A DNA stretch of 64,000 nucleotides from Acanthochlamys bracteata (Eukaryota; Streptophyta; Magnoliopsida; Pandanales; Velloziaceae). Position 1 is the first letter of the stretch, and every line of letters starts with the position of its first letter. The position numbers and the translations under genes were made by a program. This document shows positions 1 through 59,986 of this stretch, piece after piece. The notes under the pieces were generated by a model. The model made no database searches, was not told the DNA's origin, and worked only from the letters and a program-made list of their open reading frames with translations. The stretch covers positions 5,952,001 through 6,016,000 of the forward strand of contig CM034127.1 of NCBI GenBank assembly GCA_019914995.1, in the 5' to 3' direction.

Positions 1-3000
1 CTAGAGGAGATTTCCTCAGTGCTTTCCAAATGCAAGGTACTGCAGGTCAACATTCTTGTTGTTCCACAATTTGAAATTTGAAGATTTTAGAGTCACTCAT
101 CTGATGGTCTAGGGTCTAGAAGAGATGGTCTCGGGACCATCTTAGATCACTAGTAACTCTGCATCTTTCACCTGAAATGGATGGATCGGATTTTCCATTT
201 ATGTATAAGTTTACGTAGGACCTTAGAATGTCTTAGCTGATCTATAGAGAAGGAGGCACTATTTTGAAATATAAGGGCCTTAGGTCTTCTCAAAGATAAG
301 GGGTAGCGCTATTTTGAAATAACTTCAAGTCTGATATCACAACATGTGTTTTTTCATGACCTTGTCATTTTTCATGAATTTATTGCTTAGTATATATATA
401 GTATCAATTACAACAATTACTATGCCTCATTCTGCAAATTGGGATTGGAAATGTAGATCCTTTCATGTATTGTGCTTTGTTATACGTATAAAATCCTTGC
501 TAATAGAAATTTATTTATTTATTTCTATAGTATATGACCAACAGACCAAGTCTTCTTAGATTTTCATATATCCCTCTTAACAAGAGGAGCTTCCTTCAAT
601 TATAATCGGGTATACAGGGTCGCCTCTAATGGACATCCTAGCATTAGCACAATCGTCTGGAATGTATTAGATTTGACATGTTCTTATAGGAACTTTCAAC
701 CTAACTCCAACCCTCCTCTTATATTGGAAGTGATGTCCAATGGGAGGAGTTGAGCAAATATAAATCATACTTATTGAAAGAAGAGATCATAAATTGGAGT
801 ATTTACTATTTAAGTAACTTCTGAAGAATATGAATTGTTTCAATTTGAATTTGGGCTATGATAGGAAAGATAGTGTTGTAATAAGAACTGTTTTGTTTAA
901 TTAAAAAGGCTTCTTACATATTGAATAGCTAGCAGTTGTGGAACTTGGGAATTGAGATGGATAGACTGACTTAGGTATTAATCTAGTAGATTGTAAGATC
1001 TAATAAAGTTAAATCCAGATATACTTACTCTTGTTTAGAAAATCTGCATTGATTCTAATATATATAATCATTAGCATTAACTTATTAGATTTCTTGATTC
1101 AAAAGGTTACCACCTTATAGTGCTACATGTTCCCATCTTACAGAAGCCTTTCTGTCTTGGCACTTCAGAAGAGATTTCTGTCCTTTATGGTTTTGCTTTT
1201 AGTTCCTTTCTAATATCAGTTCAACAACCATTTGCTTTTCCCTAGTTGTATCTTATTGCATGTATTTTCTTCTTGATGTAATTCAGAAAGTTCTATGGAT
1301 AGGTCCTGTGAAATTTGGGCCGACAACACAAGAAGTGCATGGAGCATCTGAGCTGGCATCTGCACTTGATAGCTTGAACAAAAGTTGCGACATTACACTT
1401 GTTGGGAATGCAGCTTTAGAAGCATTTGCACGGGTCTCAAAATATCTTCTGTCATATAAATCCTTCAGAAGTGCATCTGTTGTCTGGGAATTTCTTAAAG
1501 CAAGGTCACTTCCAGGAGTTGCTGCATTAGATAGAGTATGCAAATTAGACCTTTTGTGCTATCAATTAACTTTTTGCTTAGTGGTTGCTCTAAGTGCATA
1601 TAAAAGAAAAATACATGCGTTTTTCCTGTGTTATTCAGTGACTCCGTGAGATGTGAACACACACTTAAGATTCTAGAATCACATGTTCAAGGGCCAAGGT
1701 TTTACCCTTTTTTATTTATACTATCATAGTAAAACACTACACGAGAACTCTATGTAGAATTTCTCTTTTAATTGCAACAATAACTTGTGTTTTTTTCTCA
1801 AATTTTATTAGTATTATGACTTCGTTAACTTCTTCTATTCTTTCTCACAGGCCTACCCATTCGCCCTTGATTGGACCACTATTTTTGCTGATCCGAACCA
1901 GCCTTTATTCATTGACATTGGAAGTGGTATTTCCTTTATTAATGTTCCAATATATCAGCCTAAAACGTCTGTTCATAGACGCTGAAGATATTATTCTGTT
2001 AGTAGTGGATGTTGTAGGCTATATCAGCATGCAATAAGAATCTTGACTGTTTAGGTTTTATGATAATTAGTAACTTATTCTGAGGCACCACCCTGCCTGG
2101 ATCTCAATCGAGTTTTGGACACAGACTTCATTTTTTAAATATAGCCTCGCTCGATTAGGGAAACTTGTTAATTATTCAGTCAAGTTCGTCATATCTCACG
2201 TTTACTACCTCAGCTCCATGCAAGATGGTACTGTTCCAACCAAAATACCTTCAAATTCTGAAAAAGCATCTGTTATTTACTGGTGTGCAAGAATTGCAAG
2301 ATATAGTCTTTGTCATAGAGAATACTTGCTGATCTGTGGAAGTAGGTATGGTTGTGGATGTGTATTATTGAATTTATCTATTGAACTTATCCTTAGGTGT
2401 TCCATATATGCAATATAGTACAAATACTTTCTCATTGAAAATTGAGGTTTTTTTTTCTTTTAATAAATTTTGTCTATGCGAAATATGGCTTGAGGATACA
2501 TAGTGAAAGTCCATGTTTGATTTTGTTCGAAGGCGAAGTTGCATGCTGTTAACCTCCATGAAATATTTTAACTCGCATGAGAATATCAGGCATGAAGGAG
2601 CTGTTTTTCTTACCTAAGAAAGTATAGTAATCGAACAAAAAGACTAAGATTTTTCTACTCAAGCTTTCTGTGTTCTTTACTGGTGTTGTTGGTATGCTGC
2701 ACTTGTATTTAGATCAATACTACCACTGGCTATTGGTTTTGTTTGAACTTTTCCCTTTCTTTTTTCGTTTAAGAGTTCTTGGTTCCCTTAAATTATGCTT
2801 CACCATTCTCTCATTTGCTGTAGGAAATGGACTGTTTGTGTTGAGAATGGCTAAAATATGGAAGGAGTTTAATTTCATTGGACTTGAGAATAATGATAAG
2901 GTTGACATGTTTCTTCATGATATCTGATGATTCTATTTAATGTATATTTTCATTCGTTTTGAGCTCTAATACATAACTATTGGCGAAGGTGATGGAATTT

Positions 3001-6000
3001 CATTTCTTGTTACTCTTGCTTCTTACAGCTTGTGAAGGTCTGCCTGGATAATGTCGTTGAATCTGATATTCAAAATGGGTGAGTTATCTACCATTCTACC
3101 ATCCTGGATTTGTTTGAATAAATAACCTAATTACCAATAATGTGGCCATATGATTTTCTTTCGTCCTCTACGAATAAGTAGGTACTACAGTAAATGATTG
3201 TACTACCTTTTGTATTCTGGTTCTCTTTATTCATCAACATATTTTAAGTTGAATTGTCTATCGTTTAGGTTGTCTAGTTTGATAGTTTGGAAAACGAATC
3301 CAGTTCCCTTGATGCAATTGTTATAAATGCTTAGAGTTACTTCATTTGTATTTATAACCACACAAATTATTCATCGTTGATTAACTCAATATGTGTCGAT
3401 ATTAAAGGTTAATAATTGTCTTTTGCTACGGTCATAATATCAGATATAACTGTTTATGGTTATCTTTCAGTATATTAAGAAGCCAGATTCCATTGTTTCA
3501 AGGAATAAGCAATCAACTTGCATCTCTCTATGATAAGAACTGTCGATCTTTGATTAGAGTTTGAGATTATGTCCATGATTTTATATCTGCAAGAATCTGA
3601 AATTTTCGTCGCCTAGCTTGATAGGATCATTTCTAAAATCAACTTCTATGTTCAGGGTTCAGGATATTAAATTACATCCCTACTGGTTTTGTTTTTCGCA
3701 TTCCATAGTGGCCTCCAAGTTTTTGAAATCGTACTATTTGATAAAAGTAAACTAGTATGTTAATCATCTCTAGATACTGAAGGTTTGGTTAAAATAATGG
3801 CAGATTGAAACTTCATAAGCTAGTAGCAACATTTAGCTTGTAAGTAAGTTATACTAATATCTTTGATTTAAGGTCTTCTCAGAAAAAGAAAAAAGAAAAA
3901 AAGAAAGCACTGAAATATTGGCATACGCTATATGTAAATGTAAATGAATATTTCAGAGTTGTCATTAACATTTGCTTTCTCCTGCATCTAATACAAGCTA
4001 AAGTATTTTCTCTAATAGGTAAACCATAGTGCTGATGAATAATGATTTGCTATCTCTAATTTTTAGCTTGTAGCTATTTGTATGTATATTAACGAAGAAC
4101 TTGTTAATGTTGAGTTGGTGTTACTTGATATGACTATGTGTCTCTTGATTAGTGGATATGACTGTGTCTTTTGTGATGCAAGATGATATTACTAATGGGT
4201 TTCGATTCGTTTACCATGGTCATCAATATCGAACCCATGTTTAACTATCTAGATTTTCCATTTAGTAGTTAGTATATCTTCATATCTTCTTTCCATATTT
4301 TTAGTAGCTTTAGAATTTTTGAGGGCATCTTGTTTGCTTATTTTAAGGTTGAGTTTATTTTCATTGTAAACAACTTCTGACGAATAATTTCTTCTCGAAG
4401 TCGGTAGCTTTTCTTCTGTTCTTCTCTTGTCCTTCTAATTTCCCTTTGTTGTTCTGCATCATTCTGCTTATAAGAATAAACCTAAAAGTTCACGGTTGCC
4501 TCTTACCTTCTGCGTATTCTGTTGAACCTGTGTGTTTGCCAGATACTTTATTTCAACAAATGCAACTTCTACGTTCCGTTCTATTATCTCAAGCTACCCT
4601 GGGCATCTGGCATTTGTTTCAATACAGGTATGTAGAATTAATTTATAACGTTTCTGCCGCATAACTTTTAAAGTTTCTTTTCTAAGTTTTGGATTATTTT
4701 GTTTTGTCCTGTTAAAATTCTTTCATCACTTTAGTTTCTCTTGCAAAACTACCATTAGATGATTTTTTCATTTTTTTATTTTATATTGTTCGTAAGAGTT
4801 TAGTTCACTTCTGAAGATTTGCAAATAACTGGATCATTCTCATTCTTCTGCTAGGCGCTAGCAGCATTGTGCTTAGAAATTTATGCATGTTGCTGCTATG
4901 AACAGTTGAGACTCTGTTACTTGTGGTGGAGCATTGTGTCATTGGGTTTGCCATCTTGTGTTTCTAAGATTTTATATGGAAAAAGTATTTTATGTATCAA
5001 GCTTGAATAATACTGTGTAAACCACTTCCTTCAGCTCTAAAGTAATGTTTAGCTAACCTGCAGTGCACATCAATCATTTATTTTAAGCGAAGAAAAGAAT
5101 TCTTTCTCATCCTTCGTTCCCTGTGCAACCTTTATGAATAGCTTGTATAGTTCTGGACCCTCTAGCTTGATGTAATATGTGTTAAACGCTTTTGAGAGCT
5201 ATTCATATTGTCTATCTGACACCTATTGAAAAGCTAGATGTTCTCTGGAAATTATTCTCAGATTCTTATTTACACCTTAAATTTTTTCTAGTTCCCGAAT
5301 CCAGATTTTAATAAAGAGGAGCAGAGATGGAGGATGGTTCAGAGGTTACTTGTTGAAGCAATTGTGGACTTGCTTACTACTAATGGAAAGGTAGCTTGAG
5401 CTTTGCCTTTCTTATACTGAACTCTTTGTTCATTACTTCATCATTGATATTTGTTTCTCTAGGCTGGAGATAGTAATGATTACATTTGTGAAATCTCCAT
5501 TATTTTTTAGGAGAAAAGACCACCTTGTACTACTTCTAGCTAGCCTGCCCTTTCCATATTATGCTTCAACACAGTAAGCTAAGTCAGCCTCCGGTTTAAT
5601 CCTGCCTGTTTTAAGGACCTCTTAACCAACCTCGAGCTTGTATTCTAATTTGAGCCCAAGGGCTGCTGGGTACCTGGCATTTTGTTTTGTTATATGTAAT
5701 GGGCTTTGAGCCAGGTCCATGCTATGAACTTCTAAACTTCAGTATTGCTTTGAACAAAATCCATTCAGAATATGATCTGAACCACAGGCTAAAGCTGATA
5801 TCTGATAAATTGCTCATTAAATGGTATCATTATTCTCAACTGTAAGCATAACAAGATATACATCATAACATGAAATCCGACAAATACATGAAACATGACG
5901 ATGAGTATAATGTATAGATAGTTCGTAGAGACAAATTTAATGAGCATAGCACATGGAGTTTTAGTCTAAACTTGAACCATAAAGTGCACTTGATTATGTG

Positions 6001-6621
6001 CTTAGTCTAATCTTAGGAGTACAATCTATATGTATGTCTACCTATATGTATGTACAAGCTCCTCAGATCTCTAAGTGAAAGGTACATTGACATATCTGTT
6101 GCATCACACCTGAGATACTTATTGCCTCAGTGGAACTTTCGGTTTTTGTGACAGACACTTAGAATGGAGAAGAAAACACAAATGCCTTTTTGGTTTTGGT
6201 TCTTTCCACTACTTCACTATTGAAATGGTTGGATATAGCTTATCTGTGTATTTTGACATGGAGATTTGTTATCAAAATTAGCAAATGCTGTATAAGTCAT
6301 GATCCTTTTACTGCTATGAGGAACTAGAAAGCACAGACCTTTCTTAGGGAAACTTTGGTAATATGAAAATTTAAACATTTCGTAAGCAATTTTCTAAGAA
6401 ATCTCTCTTGTCAATAGATCTTCTTGCAATCAGATATCAAGGCAGTTACTATGAGAATAAAGAAGGAATTTTTGCTTTATGGAAATGACAAACTTCTTGT
6501 GGATGGTGAAAATGATGGCTGGATTCAGGAAAATCCATTTGGTATGCGATCAGATTGGGAGGAGCATGTCTTAGATCGAGGAGCTCCAATGTACAGAGTG
6601 ATGCTGAAGAAAGTTGGTTGA
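1..6621 (+). CDS. PGK-like / tRNA (guanine-N7) methyltransferase fusion, 3' part (5' end outside window)
   Basis: Exons read as <1-36, 1287-1535, 1851-1926, 2824-2900, 3029-3078, 4543-4627, 5292-5390 and 6418-6621 (876 nt, 291 residues plus TGA). All borders are GT...AG and the frame stays open. Residues 1-95 resemble the C-terminal lobe of phosphoglycerate kinase: KKVLWIGPVKFGPTT sits where kinases have vlWNGPmGvFE, and LPGVAAL matches the end of the nucleotide loop, but the GGGD and GGGAS glycine motifs are lost (VGNAALEAF and SFRSASVVWEF instead), so kinase activity is unlikely. Residues 96-291 are a full TrmB domain: SAM loop FIDIGSGNG, IGLE, STNATSTFRSI, FPNPDFNKEEQRWRM and FLQSDIKAV. 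The family places m7G at tRNA position 46. The F in FPNPDF is C in the plant homologue I remember. The fusion rests on an in-frame join 1535/1851. Two separate transcripts would be the alternative. Confidence 0.85.
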
Positions 6622-10744: not shown

Positions 10745-11624
10745 CTCAAATAGTTGGTTGATGTTATCAGCTGTCTTTGCAGATGTCTCAATAAAGAACA
10801 TGCCATTCTTCTCATATGGGATCCTTTAGAGTAGAAAAATTGGTCATTTAGTATGTGCAATTGGTTAGAAACAGAGCGCTTCAATTAGTTCAACAATTAG
10901 CGCGCTCCTATCTTCATGAAGATCAGCTTTATTTCCAACCAAAGCCATAATAATATTAGGACTTCCATGTTTTTGCAGTTCCTGTCAGGTATCAAATTCA
11001 GGTAGCAATTTAACACAGAATAATCGTACTTAAATCCTACATACACAAATCTATGGGTATGACGAATCACCTTGACCCAGTTCTGTGCTTTACTGAATGA
11101 ATCCTGACTTGTTATATCGTAAACACAACGCAACAGCTTGACCTCGGTAGTAGAGTGGTGCCAAAGCAACATACCTATGAGAAAACTACCAATTAATCCC
11201 AAGTAAATCATTACAGAAGCTCGACACTTCTAAAATACTTAAATACTGGGGCTCAATCAGAATATGCTAATTGACATGAAAAATAAAAACGAGTATATAG
11301 AATATACCTCTCCTGGCCAGCAGTATCCCATATTTCAAATTTAACGGTAGTTGAGTCTATCAAAGCAATTGTTTGAGATAAGAATGATGCACCAACTGTT
11401 ACCTAGTAGCAATTGTTTGAGATAAGAATGATGCACCAACAGTTTCCTAGTAGCCAATGCACAAAGGATAGTATTGTGCCAAACATTGAGCAAGACTTAC
11501 AAATTAAAATAAATAACTTTAGTACTCCATAAGTTGTCAAGCTCGAGTCTATCATAGTACTGACCATGTACAAACGGAGGACAATACAGCTTTTACCAAC
11601 ACCTGAATCCCCCAGCAAAACTAA
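10745..11624 (-). pseudogene. RABF1: ARA6/RABF1-type Rab5 GTPase pseudogene
   Basis: Five exon remnants lie in the right order with introns kept: about 11540-11624 (VLLGDSGVGKSCIVLR, P-loop), 11308-11402 ([14 protein letters not shown] and [12 protein letters not shown]), 11071-11174 (YVALAPLYYRG...VYDITSQDSFSKAQNWVK), about 10899-10981 ([20 protein letters not shown]) and 10745 to about 10828 ([20 protein letters not shown]). The wording matches the plant-specific ARA6 class, which carries GDSGVGKS, rather than RABF2. It is broken: the P-loop exon changes frame after IVLR, the third exon changes frame between YYRGQ and VYDITS, the fifth lacks bases before its YEKNGM segment, and a 44-bp piece of the second exon is tandemly repeated. 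The first exon (N-myristoylation MGC) and last exon were not found. Retained introns mean a duplicated, not processed, pseudogene. Confidence 0.85.
11365..11452. repeat. 44-bp tandem duplication inside the Rab pseudogene
   Basis: Copies at 11365-11408 and 11409-11452 both read GCAATTGTTTGAGATAAGAA onward to CCTAGTA, differing at a few bases. The unit covers the intron 3' end and the start of the exon that encodes VGASFLSQT, so the 3' splice site is present twice. This is a local duplication that occurred in the relic or caused its decay. Confidence 0.85.
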
Positions 11625-13159
11625 CTGTGAAGAAAAAGGTATCGCATAATCAAGAACGAGATTTGAGAAATGCTTGAGGGTACCAGATGCAATGGATAAT
11701 AGCACGACAATAAGTAAACCTAGAAAATAGATGAACGATAAATAAATTTGCGACAAAAGTTTAATCTTTTTACAAGCAAGAAAATGACATCTGGATGATG
11801 ACATGTACCTAGCACACTGTATTAAAGCTTTCAATGGACGCCAAAAGAAGGATGATCAGAAAACCCTACTCCACAAGAGGCAATAGTACAACTACAACAT
11901 CAGCAGTGAAAGGTACATAAAGAACATAATATAGACCTTCCAACCTTTTAATATCTGAATTTAGGGAAGTAAGAAGAAGGCTACTGAATTACCTATGTCA
12001 AACAAGAAAGGAAGCTCATTTGTTAATATAACAACTTAACTTGCTTAGTGAGCCCATCATATAGTTCCAACTACCCTTCAAAGAATCAACATATAAAAGC
12101 TAGTAGGGATGATGAACCTGATTCTAATTACTAATAAATTTGTCACTAATTCATTTTCTAGTAAAAAAATCAAATACGATGTTGTCCCTTAGCACGCAAG
12201 TTTTGGGTCAGAAGAATCTGATCTTTCATTCTTCAAACTGCCTAACCTTGCTGTTTTCCTACCTGAAAGCAAAGCGACATCAGTTCAAAAAGATTGAACT
12301 TCTGTAGATGGCACTTTGATCACACACAAAGATGATTAGAACCTATGGCAATTTATTCTCTAAACTTACACTATCATGACAAATGCAGACAATTTCTGCT
12401 GACAATTTCTAAGTAAAAAAATAGTTAATAAATTACAATAAGACATGCAACCAAAACAGATGGAGGAACACTGTACAGGCATGAGAATCCAAAAGTAGAT
12501 ACTGCAAGGACTAATTAGCAATGTTCTTGTTCTCTTTCTAATAAAGTTATAGCTCGTACTGTTTAGCTTTGTATATGGGGATGTTTGGTAGTACTTTTCA
12601 ACCACTTTTTATTCCAATTTTTTGTTTCATGTTTTTAAATAAACATTTTACAATTAAGCACCACAAAAATATAACTCCAATGATGCAAAAGCAGTTAACA
12701 AAAATATAGGTTGAGGTTGACACAATGTACACAGGCAAAAGCTTCTATTTTCAAGAGAATCATGAAAAGTAAACAAAAAGTCATTTTATCATAGTACTAA
12801 TAGTACAATTTGCTATAGTGCTTCAAAAGATTTCTTTCGAATTGTAAATTCTGCCTTACAAAAAATAAGCATTCAAGTATGAAACTAAGGATATAAGGAA
12901 GCTGTGGTGCTAGGAATTAGTTTCATTGTACTTTAGAAAATATTACACAGAATATTTTTTCCATGCACACCCCTTAGATTCCTATAAAGGCCTCCTAAAG
13001 ACATTAAGTTACATATATATCATACTCTCAGCTTCATTTTACCGGCATCTCATATTTACACTCTTATCCAAGTTTGAGAAACAAAGGGCATCTCCAGGAA
13101 GCCTATCTGACTGCATATGAAAAATTTCACCTTCAACCTACCAAGTACATGGCTTCTTA
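11625..13159. other. Intergenic stretch without supported gene
   Basis: This should hold the missing first exon of the Rab relic if it were intact, but no MGC-type N-terminus was found. At 12575-12610 a GGGGATGTTTGGTAGT string looks like a single transposon end; its partner was not located. Nothing else is supported. Confidence 0.4.
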
Positions 13160-55200: not shown

Positions 55201-58200
55201 TTAATGGATCCGCAATCATTAGATTGGTGCTAACATGCTCAATTAACACTCTTTGTTTCTAAACTTTTTCTTTAACGGCAAGATATTTTAAATTCATATG
55301 TTGAGCACCCTTAGAATACTTGTCGTTCTTAGAGAAGAAAACTGCTGCAGAATTATTACAGTAAATTTTCAGCGATTTGTCAATACTGTCGACAACGCCA
55401 AGCGTAGAAATAAAATTCTACAGCCAATTAGCTTGGATTATGGCTTCAAAGCATGCCACAAATTCAGCTTCTATAGTGAAAATAGCAATGACAGACTGGT
55501 TCGTATTTTTCCATGATATTGCTCCTCCAACCAAAAGGACACATACCCAAATATGAATTTTCTAATATCAACACATCCAACAAAGTTTGAATCCGAAAAT
55601 CCGACAACCTCCAAATTGTCAGATCTTCTGTAAGTGAACATATGATCTTTCGTTCCTTGCAAGTTCTTAATACTTTCTTTGCAGCTCTCCAGTGATCATG
55701 TTATGGATTACTTTCATATCGGCCTAGCATTCCGACGGCAAAACTGATGTCGGGTTTAGTATAAGTCCGAGTATATATCAGGCTCCCAACAAGAGATGCA
55801 TAAGAAATTTTCATCATTTGTTTGCGTTCCAATTCATTTTCTGGACATTGCATAAGACTAAATTTGTCATCTTTTTGGATTGGAACAATATTTGCTGAGC
55901 AATTTTTCATTCCAAATCTCTCTGAAATTTTATTAACATATGCTTTATTAGACAACCCTAACAATCCTTATGATCGATTTCGATAAATTTTAATACCAAT
56001 CACAAAAGTTGTCTCTCTCATATCTTTCATTTCAAAGTTTTTAGAAAGAAATTTCTTAGTCTTATGTAACATACCAAAATTATTTGTAGCACATAAGATA
56101 TCATCAACATACAGAATTAGAAATATAAATTTGCTCCCACTGATCTTTGGATATACACATCGATTAACAGTGTTTTCTTTAAATACAAAAGAAAAGATAG
56201 TATCATTAAACTTGAGATACCATTATCGGGAAGCTTGCTTAAGTCCGTATATTAATTTTTTAAGTTTACATACCAACTTTTCTTTTTCTTCAACCAAAAA
56301 GCCTTCAGATTGACACATATATACTTCCTCATCCAAATTTCCATATAAGAAGACGGTTTTCACATTCATTTGATTTAGTTCTAAATCATAATGAGCTACT
56401 AAAACTATGATAATTCTAAATGAGTCCTTTTTTGAAACTGGAGAAAATGTTTTATTATAATCAATACCATTTTTTTAAGTAAAATTCTTAGTAACAAGTC
56501 TAGCTTTATATCATTCGATATTATCATTTGAGTCACGTTTGGTTTTAAAGACTCACTTGCACCCAATACACTTATGTCCTTCTGGCAATTCAACAAGTTC
56601 TCAAACTTTATTACGTTGCATACATTTAACTCATCAGTTATGGCATCTATCCATTCAGAACTATTAGCACCATCAATGGCCTGTGAAAATGAAACTGGAT
56701 CATCATTAATGCCTAAGTCAAAATTTGACTCTTGTAAATAAACCACATAATCGTTCGAAATAGCAGATTTTTTTTGTGGTTGAGATCCTCTTAATGCTAT
56801 TTCTTTTGGCTCATTTACAATAGATTCATCGAGATTGATGTCATTTGGAGGAGTTTCACTTATTTGTTGTTCTTGTACACTATTAAACCGTTCTACAGCC
56901 GTAAACAATAATTTTATAAGAAGTTTGAGGTAAAGAAATTTATTCCCTAACTTTTTTAATTTCCACTTTGAGTGGTTTTTCACTCCCACTGATTTCACCA
57001 TTTTCAGTGAATCTAGCATTTCTAGTTTCAACAATTCTTGTATTATAATTAAAACAATAAAATGTATACTCTTTTGATTTTTCTGGATAACCAATGAATA
57101 ATCCACTGATTGTTCTTGCATCCAGTTTTCTTTCATTTGGATTATAAATTTTTATCTCCGCTGGACAACCCCATACATGTAGATGCCTTAAACTAGGTTT
57201 CTTTTCTGTCCACAGTTCAAAAGGAGTTTTTGAAACTGCCTTACTAGTAACACTGTTTAACAGATACGTGGCAATTTTTAAAGCATGCATCCACAATAAT
57301 TTAGGTAAAGATGAATTACTTAACATACTTCTAACCATATCCATTAGAGTACGATTACGTCTTTCTGCTACACCATTTTATTGTGGTGTGCCTAACATTG
57401 TGTATTGAGCACACATGTCATGTCTTTCAAGAAATTTAGCAAATGGATTTGGATATTGTCCCGTTTCATCATACTTTCCGTAATATTCACCACTTCTATC
57501 AGATCTGATAATTTTTACCTTTCTATCTAACTGTCTTTCAACTTTAATAATAAATACCTCTAAGATATTTATTGCATGAGTTTTTTCATTTAACAGATAG
57601 ATATAACCATAACGTGAAAAATCATCAATAAAGGTGATAAAATACTTTTCTCCACTAAAAAATAAAATATCAAAAGGTTCAGAAATATCAGTATGTATAA
57701 TCTCAATAAGCTGTGTACTTTTTTTGTCTCATTTTTTTGTGTGTTTAGTTTGTTTTTCTTTAATACAATCCACACACATATCAACATCGGTAAAATCTAA
57801 ATTCGGAAGAATTTCATTTTTTCCAATCTTTTTAATCTTGATTTGGATATGTGACCCAAACGTTTATGCCACAAGTAAGCTGAATATTCATTCACTAAAT
57901 CTTGTTTAGTGCCAACATCATAATGTAAGGTTAAAAGTATTTTAGCGAAGGAATTATCAAGTTTTAACTTGTATAAACCATCACATAAGACACCAGAACC
58001 AATAATATTATTTTTTTTAAACAAACTGACATATCTATTTCCAAATTTAAAAGAGTATCCATGAACGTCAAATTTTGACAAAAAAATTAAATTGCGGGAA
58101 ATAAAAGGTACATAAAGTAAATTCATATGGTTTCAACTGAAACTTTGACTCGATTCTCCATAAAAATAAATTTCTCATTTTGATTTGTGATTCGGGTCAT

Positions 58201-59986
58201 AATGAATCCCTGCATCGTATTTGAAACATGAGCGGTACATGTAGAATCAATCCACTAAGTATTATAAGAAACTTTAACTAAATTTGATTCGAAACATACA
58301 CAAGCATAATGCTTACCTTCTTTTTGAACCAAGTCTTATGCTTCAGGCAATCTTTCTGATAGTGGCAATGTTTCTTACAGAACCGACACTTGTCATCTTT
58401 ACATTCCTTCTTATGAATTGAAGCAGAATACCTATTTATATTAAATGGTCATTGAGCTTCTTTTCCATTCTTTCTTTCAGCTTTCTTTTCAGCTTTTTGA
58501 TGCTTAATGAAATGAACGGAATGAGTTTTCAAATTCTTAAGTCTTGTCTCCTCTTGCACAAGTATACTGTGTAATTACTCATATTTCATTTGTCCTTCAT
58601 AGTATTAGAGTTCATTTGGAATGTACCATATTCAGGAGGTAAGGAATTAATAATAAACTGTACAAGAAAATTGTCATCTACATTCATTCCCAAGGACTTT
58701 AATCTTGCTGCAATATTTGACGTTTCAATAGCATGCTCATGCATACTACGAGATTTATCAAATTTTATGGTGGTCAATATACCCATAAGTGTCCCAGCAA
58801 ATGACTTATCAGCTGTTTGGAAACGCTCTTCCACAAACTTCATAAATTCCTTAGCACTTTCAGTATTAGAAAGAGTTGATTTAATATTCTTTGCAACAGT
58901 CATTCGCATAAATTTTAAATTTAATCTGTTTGATCTTTCCCAAATACTATGGAAAGATTTTTCTTCATCGTTGCTGTCATTAGTAAGAGCAACGGGTTTC
59001 TCAGTTAATAGTGCTAAATTAAGATCCAGCACACCTAAGTAAAACTGAACTTGTTCACACCAATCAAAGAAATTAAGTCCGTTGAACAGTGATACAGACG
59101 TACCATATGAATGCAAAGAAATAAGAATAGATGCTGCAAAATTAATAAATACTCGCAAATTAATACTTTGACTTTCAAATTTTTAAAACATAATCTGATT
59201 CAAACAAATTTAATCAATAAATGTATATCAAGGTTCTCCTTTGGGTGAAGCAACGACATACAACATAAACAATAATGATCCTTAAATAAAATTTTAACTT
59301 AATTTGATAATTAAATATATTCAAATTAGATATGTTTGCTATCTTTGAATATACAAAATAAATCTAATAAAATATATAAATTACCACATCATGTTTATGA
59401 AATATAAGAACTACTAATTAATCTTTGGGTGATTCTAAATATCTTAAACTTCAATTATTCATAAAATAAAATATTTAATATAATGTCATATCAATTATAA
59501 ACATCGCATATTTATGGATAATTGAACATATAGAATATATAATTTGAAATTCACGACAGCTTATAATTTGGCCACTTTGGTGATTAACAAACTATTATAA
59601 TATAAATTCAAATTAACTTACAAATTATATAATTTGAAATTTGCAAAATTTGCGATTTGACCACTTTGGTAACTAACAAATCATCATAATACAAACTCAA
59701 ATTAGCATAAATTCAATAGTTGTAAGAAAATAATTTATACATATATGATATAAATTCTTTTATGCAATATATCACATAAATCACCATATAATAGCATACA
59801 ATTCATGATGCTAATAATTTAATTGACGAACTTTATACATATTTGATAAAAGTATGCAGAAAATTTTTATTTATAAATACCAACAACAGCGAAAAACATA
59901 AACTCCCAAAATAAATAATTTGAGGATTTTCAAAATCAAGAGAGAAATGAAATCTTTAATGAAAAATTATCGATTTCTAAAACCTT

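Follow-up and report, generated by a model that had tools for sequence, protein, structure and literature searches.

The stretch analysed here (hereafter the window) comprises 64,000 nucleotides of the Acanthochlamys bracteata genome (GCA_019914995.1, CM034127.1:5,952,001-6,016,000, forward strand; C2:5952001-6016000 in our numbering), and its left edge cuts through a gene that joins a phosphoglycerate kinase (PGK) fold to a tRNA 7-methylguanosine (m7G) methyltransferase (MT) fold of the TrmB family. We modelled this gene as 13 exons and 653 codons plus stop, with a frame that is open throughout the spliced model. It starts on the + strand with an ATG at L009:5747 (C2:5947747) and ends at window position 6621; exons 1-5, and 32 nt of the 68-nt exon 6, are located to the left of the window (Table 1). 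Exon boundaries were set by eye and then shifted by script, by no more than two bases, to reach GT or AG, and the exons were fixed before we read the standalone TrmB gene with which they are compared below; all 12 introns are GT-AG, a count that is partly a product of this construction. An earlier, sequence-only reading of the window had placed exons at 1-36 and 1287-1535 and had joined them in frame, in phase 0, to an exon at 1851; the model splices just as it proposed. That reading also expected the PGK N-lobe to lie beyond the left edge, and a search of the genome (195.5 Mb) indeed gave Pfam PGK matches that adjoin the window on the same strand (C2:5948915-5949670 and 5951048-5951329). In the predicted protein, an N-terminal extension (exons 1-2) precedes a PGK fold of full length (exons 3-7) and the TrmB-derived MT fold (exons 8-13): residues 81-416 match Pfam PGK (181 bits, E 4.7e-53) and residues 473-643 of the same protein match Pfam Methyltransf_4 (88.3 bits, E 5.3e-25), both well over the cut-off. 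No second copy of the fusion was found in the genome; the other matches to the protein are four weak ones, all in ordinary PGK genes.

Table 1. Exons and junction intron of the fusion gene; positions refer to the window unless prefixed L009. SAM, S-adenosylmethionine.
Feature	Position	Strand	Content
Exons 1-5	L009 5747-5837, 5929-6002, 6840-7104, 7327-7667, 9048-9330	+	Exons 1-3 end at residue 143
Exon 6 (68 nt)	L009:9969 to window 36; window part 1..36	+	PGK 'LEEISSVLSKCK'; GT donor at 37
Exon 7	1287..1535	+	End of PGK-like C-lobe, KVLWIGP...LPGVAALDR; nucleotide-site motifs mostly lost
Junction intron	1536..1850	+	Phase 0; position and phase equal those of the intron before the MT core in standalone plastid-type TrmB
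Exon 8	1851..1926	+	76 nt, as in TrmB; start of MT core, SAM motif IDIGSG
Exon 9	2824..2900	+	77 nt, as in TrmB; NGLF...GLENNDK; acidic SAM residue E504 kept
Exon 10	3029..3078	+	50 nt, as in TrmB
Exon 11	4543..4627	+	85 nt, as in TrmB; NATS...FVSIQ
Exon 12	5292..5390	+	99 nt, as in TrmB; FPNPDFNKEEQRWR, against CPDPHFKKRHHKRR in plastid-type TrmB; catalytic Asp replaced by Asn556
Exon 13	6418..6621	+	Includes stop; IFLQSD...RSDWEEH; end of MT domain

The arrangement of the junction favours a single translation product. In the frame of exon 8 there is no ATG between the upstream stop and the exon itself; the first methionine of the MT part is residue 491, downstream of the SAM motif; and read-through from exon 7 meets a stop within the junction intron. 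Since no in-frame ATG lies ahead of the SAM motif, the MT part could not start alone with that motif intact, barring a non-ATG start, and one fused protein is the natural reading of the phase-0 junction. The very long branches that we observe in trees might instead be those of a decaying pseudogene, or of two neighbouring genes that have been mis-joined. We consider this extremely unlikely: the MT part has no in-frame ATG ahead of its SAM motif, the 653 codons remain open across 13 exons (as opposed to the visibly broken C6 PGK copy and the intronless-looking Trm8 copy of the same genome), and other land plants have been reported to carry the same fusion (PMC7826186).

A comparison of gene structures shows that the MT half shares its introns with a gene of the same plant that encodes a standalone, plastid-type TrmB (L024:1486-3862). 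Exons 8-12 of the fusion have the lengths of exons 3-7 of that gene (76/77/50/85/99 nt), and in both genes the introns are offset by 0, 76, 153, 203, 288 and 387 from the start of the MT core: all six MT introns (five internal, plus the junction) match in both position and phase. The junction intron occupies the position of the TrmB intron that lies between the exons for the presequence and RxRxHxNPL and those for the MT core, a match that rests on the ungapped exon lengths, the aligner having displaced the first four residues of the fusion's MT part. For the five internal matches, we put the chance probability at ~2e-12 when every position is allowed, and at ~2e-9 when introns are restricted to sites after G; the five internal introns do follow G, and the junction intron follows A. 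As for the four introns within the PGK part, none matches any of the five introns of three canonical PGK genes, and the nearest is 9 aligned columns off. Splice sites of the comparison genes were the script's choice around peptides picked by eye, and one or two of the canonical PGK boundaries lie a few codons off, which falls short of that 9-column gap.

The shared introns argue that the MT half derives from the plant's TrmB gene by duplication, rather than from a bacterial gene acquired independently (cf. PMC7761438); we take standalone TrmB as the ancestral form because it keeps motifs in common with cyanobacteria. Phase-0 exon shuffling from the plant TrmB gene is thus the probable origin of the fusion. 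We hypothesize, with strong confidence in both steps, that a copy of that gene would have been stripped of exons 1 and 2, which carry the presequence and RxRxHxNPL, and that the old phase-0 intron would have served to splice its third exon to the final exon of a PGK gene of non-canonical type. On the intron evidence, the MT half would owe its origin to plant gene duplication and exon shuffling, in place of the bacterial chimera proposed in print. Searches of one open-access library gave no report of this intron sharing. The PGK part could not be placed in a tree (21 of the 41 cyanobacterial PGKs were used), where its end branch has a length of 10, and bit scores single out no donor among the sequences compared: 123-160 against cyanobacterial PGK (41 sequences), 134-138 against the plant's own PGK and, in another search, 163 against PDB 7zy7, which we take to be from Chlamydomonas.

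The PGK half was compared with 44 reference PGKs, of which 41 are cyanobacterial (from 80 loci, selected for a 380-520 aa frame with the two expected motifs) and three are from this genome; a broken copy on C6 was left out. Its degeneracy, already noted in the sequence-only reading, is extensive: the fusion keeps just 70 of the 174 columns that are invariant among the references, the first GGG keeps one of its three glycines and the second GGG is deleted. Using the numbering of the C4 gene, the residues that are substituted or deleted include N99, H136, R139, R194 and R227 on the 3-phosphoglycerate (3PGA) side, and K273, N392, E399, D430, S431 and the second glycine motif on the nucleotide side. 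The set of features that marks an active PGK (EC 2.7.2.3), namely the basic 3PGA patch, the GGSK lysine and the GGGD and GGGA nucleotide loops, is not retained, and we expect, with moderate confidence, that the fusion would not phosphorylate 3PGA. These losses also bear on a role in arsenate tolerance, of the kind envisaged for the related algal genes PGK3 and PGK4A, which neighbour ArsJ and GAPDH3. PMC7826186 groups the land-plant fusion (PGK4B) with PGK4A, raises a possible arsenate role for PGK4 and describes Chlamydomonas pgk3 and arsJ mutants as arsenate sensitive; nevertheless, 3PGA recycling would depend on a PGK active site, most of which is lost here, and we judge such a role very unlikely. 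Separately, the C6 copy (G000:C6:6283476-6285781, L029) is of plastid type and looks inactive: its listed PGK matches end at profile position 272, its C-lobe contains a frame shift and its N-lobe an in-frame near-repeat, KLASLADPYV.

The MT half was aligned with the 30 best of 75 cyanobacterial TrmB matches (E <=1e-15, from 74 of 146 genomes), together with the standalone plastid-type TrmB and a cytosolic Trm8-type protein. The domain had been described as complete, and in extent this is nearly so (169 of 173 Pfam Methyltransf_4 positions), but its catalytic residues and its N-terminal TrmB motif have gone. The catalytic Asp, present in all 30 cyanobacterial loci and both plant homologues, is Asn556 in the fusion; R506, present in 30/30 cyanobacterial TrmB, is N; and relative to the plastid-type enzyme the fusion carries H558D, K560N, H563E and R566W. 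The six fixed residues of RxRxHxNPL (R, R, H, N, P, L), kept in 30/30 and in both plant homologues, have no counterpart: the aligner sets gaps or AYPF of the fusion against the end of this motif, and P alone agrees. The fusion scores 84.9 bits against the TIGR00091 equivalog model (NCBIfam), below the cut-off of 112.65 that the standalone TrmB control passes with 123. The SAM-binding motif I, DIGSGNG (DxGxG), is kept, as is the acidic E504, which our alignment places opposite METTL1 E107, a residue proposed to bind SAM (PMC10300002). Substitution of Asp133 by Ala or Asn abolishes the activity of A. aeolicus TrmB (PMC6320965), and the change of LFPD to AFPA yields a catalytically dead METTL1 (PMC12075834). 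The TrmB half thus appears to be incomplete in function, and with moderate confidence we would expect no m7G to be made; overall, the substitutions lead us to predict negative results in assays of PGK or m7G46 activity.

The FPNPDF motif also resembles the NPP(F/Y) motif of amino-methyltransferases, although NPDF is neither NPPF nor NPPY. Together with the retained SAM motif, E504, N531 and D592, the resemblance could be taken to indicate an active methyltransferase with a changed chemistry or target: candidates would be an exocyclic amine, an amide in a protein, or an unusual position in tRNA, for instance m7G36 of chloroplast tRNA-Leu(UAG). The latter modification has been reported in chloroplast tRNA-Leu (PMC8877259), and a 2018 review (PMC6320965) describes the gene for the anticodon m7G of chloroplast tRNA as not identified. 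We regard this explanation as unlikely, since replacement of Asp by Asn at the catalytic position kills TrmB (PMC6320965), and both the tRNA-facing basic residues and the N-terminal motif have been lost.

Two further observations concern the wider family. A TrmB-family match at E 1e-15 occurs in 74 of the 146 cyanobacterial genomes sampled; among the 20 genomes listed as lacking one (52 more lack it), 15 are 2.2 Mb or smaller. In A. bracteata itself, G000:C2:11001497-11002055 (L014) holds what looks like an intronless copy of the cytosolic Trm8-type gene at C1:11677883; its frame is broken, and it is probably a processed pseudogene.

The N-terminal 55 residues, which two exons ahead of the PGK fold encode, have a net charge of +7, as compared to 0 for the next 55. 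From this composition, plastid import is possible but weakly indicated; the plastid targeting suggested in the sequence-only reading finds some backing in the basic N-terminus, but not in any enrichment of Ser and Thr. A nuclear location has been proposed for the maize relative ZmPGK5, a protein of 509 aa with an NATS sequon at 389, for which Wolf PSORT predicts the nucleus (PMC7761438); by analogy, the present protein could be a nuclear PGK-methyltransferase, perhaps in a DNA-polymerase-alpha complex. Of the four maize sequons listed, NATS is the only one that is identical here, as judged by reported positions rather than by sequence; it is at 531 of 653, giving an offset of 142 and a length difference of 144, which fit a maize model that is without exons 1-3 (ending at residue 143) and any presequence. 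The maize model therefore seems short of ~142-144 N-terminal residues; its nuclear prediction would rest on an N-terminally shortened protein, the assignment seems doubtful, and we judge a nuclear role for the A. bracteata protein to be quite unlikely.

Both active sites look dead, yet the protein retains its folds, its SAM pocket and an uninterrupted frame; a non-catalytic role is the most likely. We favour, as moderately probable on the sequence evidence, a plastid-targeted double pseudoenzyme that retains its SAM pocket, serves a regulatory or structural purpose and obtained its TrmB part by exon shuffling. Such a protein may still bind SAM while acting, without catalysis, as a regulatory or structural subunit. 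Dead paralogues of dimeric methyltransferases can pair with an active partner, and the most plausible mode might be pairing with plastid TrmB, its probable ancestor; alternatively, it might dock a plastid partner via its PGK lobes. More tentatively, and in its entirety rather unlikely, an exon shuffle in streptophytes would have joined a plastid tRNA methyltransferase gene to an algal-type PGK gene, and the product, kept in many land plants, would be a plastid SAM-sensing, non-catalytic tuner of plastid TrmB or of another plastid RNA methyltransferase.

Several observations weigh against the double-pseudoenzyme interpretation or against the origin that we attach to it. In the full protein tree, the fusion's MT part and plastid-type TrmB do not form one clade (2% of bootstrap trees); with the remote rows included, plastid-type TrmB is placed with the eukaryotic cytosolic enzymes (94/74). 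The pairing is nonetheless not rejected (p-AU 0.33), and it appears, weakly (73/83), once the cytosolic and four PDB rows are left out; the protein trees neither prove nor reject it. Furthermore, in the cytosolic Trm8-type gene (L011, C1) an intron after GMELRDK shares the position and phase of one plastid-type TrmB intron, and such an overlap suggests that single coincidences or very old introns do occur, whether by shared ancestry or by parallel insertion. In the PGK part, D97, K277 and the GG of GGSK survive, as perhaps does R113 (there is an alignment gap), which may permit weak or altered ligand binding. The number of conserved TrmB columns kept (43/90 in the fusion, 62/90 in standalone plastid-type TrmB) by itself proves nothing, bearing in mind that the cytosolic Trm8-type protein, presumably active, keeps only 37/90: the argument is from the catalytic positions. 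Our equation of A. aeolicus Asp133 with the Asp of FPDP was drawn from residue spacing, and the METTL1 AFPA mutant (PMC12075834) supports it. The Ser+Thr fraction of the N-terminal 55 residues (0.18) equals that of the next 55 and compares with 0.24 in the presequence of the C4 PGK. Finally, a partner that binds tRNA is disfavoured by the loss of the basic patch, and Arabidopsis keeps a chloroplast Trm8 homologue, At5g17660 (PMC2956550), in a genome without the fusion, from which it follows that a partner role is not essential.

Elsewhere in the window, on the minus strand, 58589-59182 encodes a Copia-type retrotransposon gag domain (Retrotran_gag_2, E 2.4e-12), and frames at 56408-57377 look by eye like the remains of copia pol, with no Pfam match in the part that was scanned (56408-57151). 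A minus-strand fragment at 11406-11855 resembles a Ras-type GTPase P-loop (GDSGVGKS) under the Pfam cut-offs, and could represent a single Rab exon.

The sequence-only reading took PGK and TrmB to be normally separate proteins, but both the architecture of the fusion and its degenerate PGK part are already known: it has been published as PGK4B (PMC7826186), as group II PGK-MT (PMC9228606) and as ZmPGK5 (PMC7761438). PGK4B is described as a PF00162-PF02390 fusion, the sole non-canonical PGK-like protein of land plants, missing from Arabidopsis and exemplified by rice LOC_Os10g30550, with its function listed as unknown (Foflonker and Blaby-Haas 2020, PMC7826186). Group II comprises six PGK-MT proteins plus one from Klebsormidium, in which key ATP and 3PGA residues are absent; this group is reported as absent from Brassicaceae and Asteraceae (PMC9228606). 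ZmPGK5 and its relatives in poplar, castor, grape, sorghum and rice are called nuclear, and recombination after horizontal transfer is suggested for them (PMC7761438); the passages of a soybean PGK family paper (PMC13259330) do not mention a methyltransferase. The A. bracteata protein contains PF00162 followed by PF02390 and lacks most of the 3PGA/ATP-binding residues: the gene is this genome's PGK4B-type gene.

Set beside rice LOC_Os10g30550, by description only, the protein has the same architecture, with an N-terminal PF00162 and a C-terminal PF02390 domain. It resembles the ZmPGK5 group in its degenerate PGK, its IPR003358 domain and the NATS sequon in the MT part, but unlike ZmPGK5 (annotated at 509 aa, predicted to be nuclear and viewed as a horizontal-transfer chimera) it has 653 aa and a basic N-terminal extension, and its introns point to an MT part that is a duplicate of a plant gene. 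With standalone plastid-type TrmB it shares six intron positions and phases, five exon lengths and 50 of 129 residues in exons 8-12, whereas only the standalone protein keeps RxRxHxNPL and CPDPHFKKRHHKRR and passes TIGR00091. That standalone enzyme presumably resembles At5g17660. Finally, the fusion shares the PGK fold with the canonical PGKs encoded on C10, C15 and C4 (116 of 389 aligned residues are identical to the C4 protein), but these have an intact active site, five introns with none in common with the fusion, and no MT domain.

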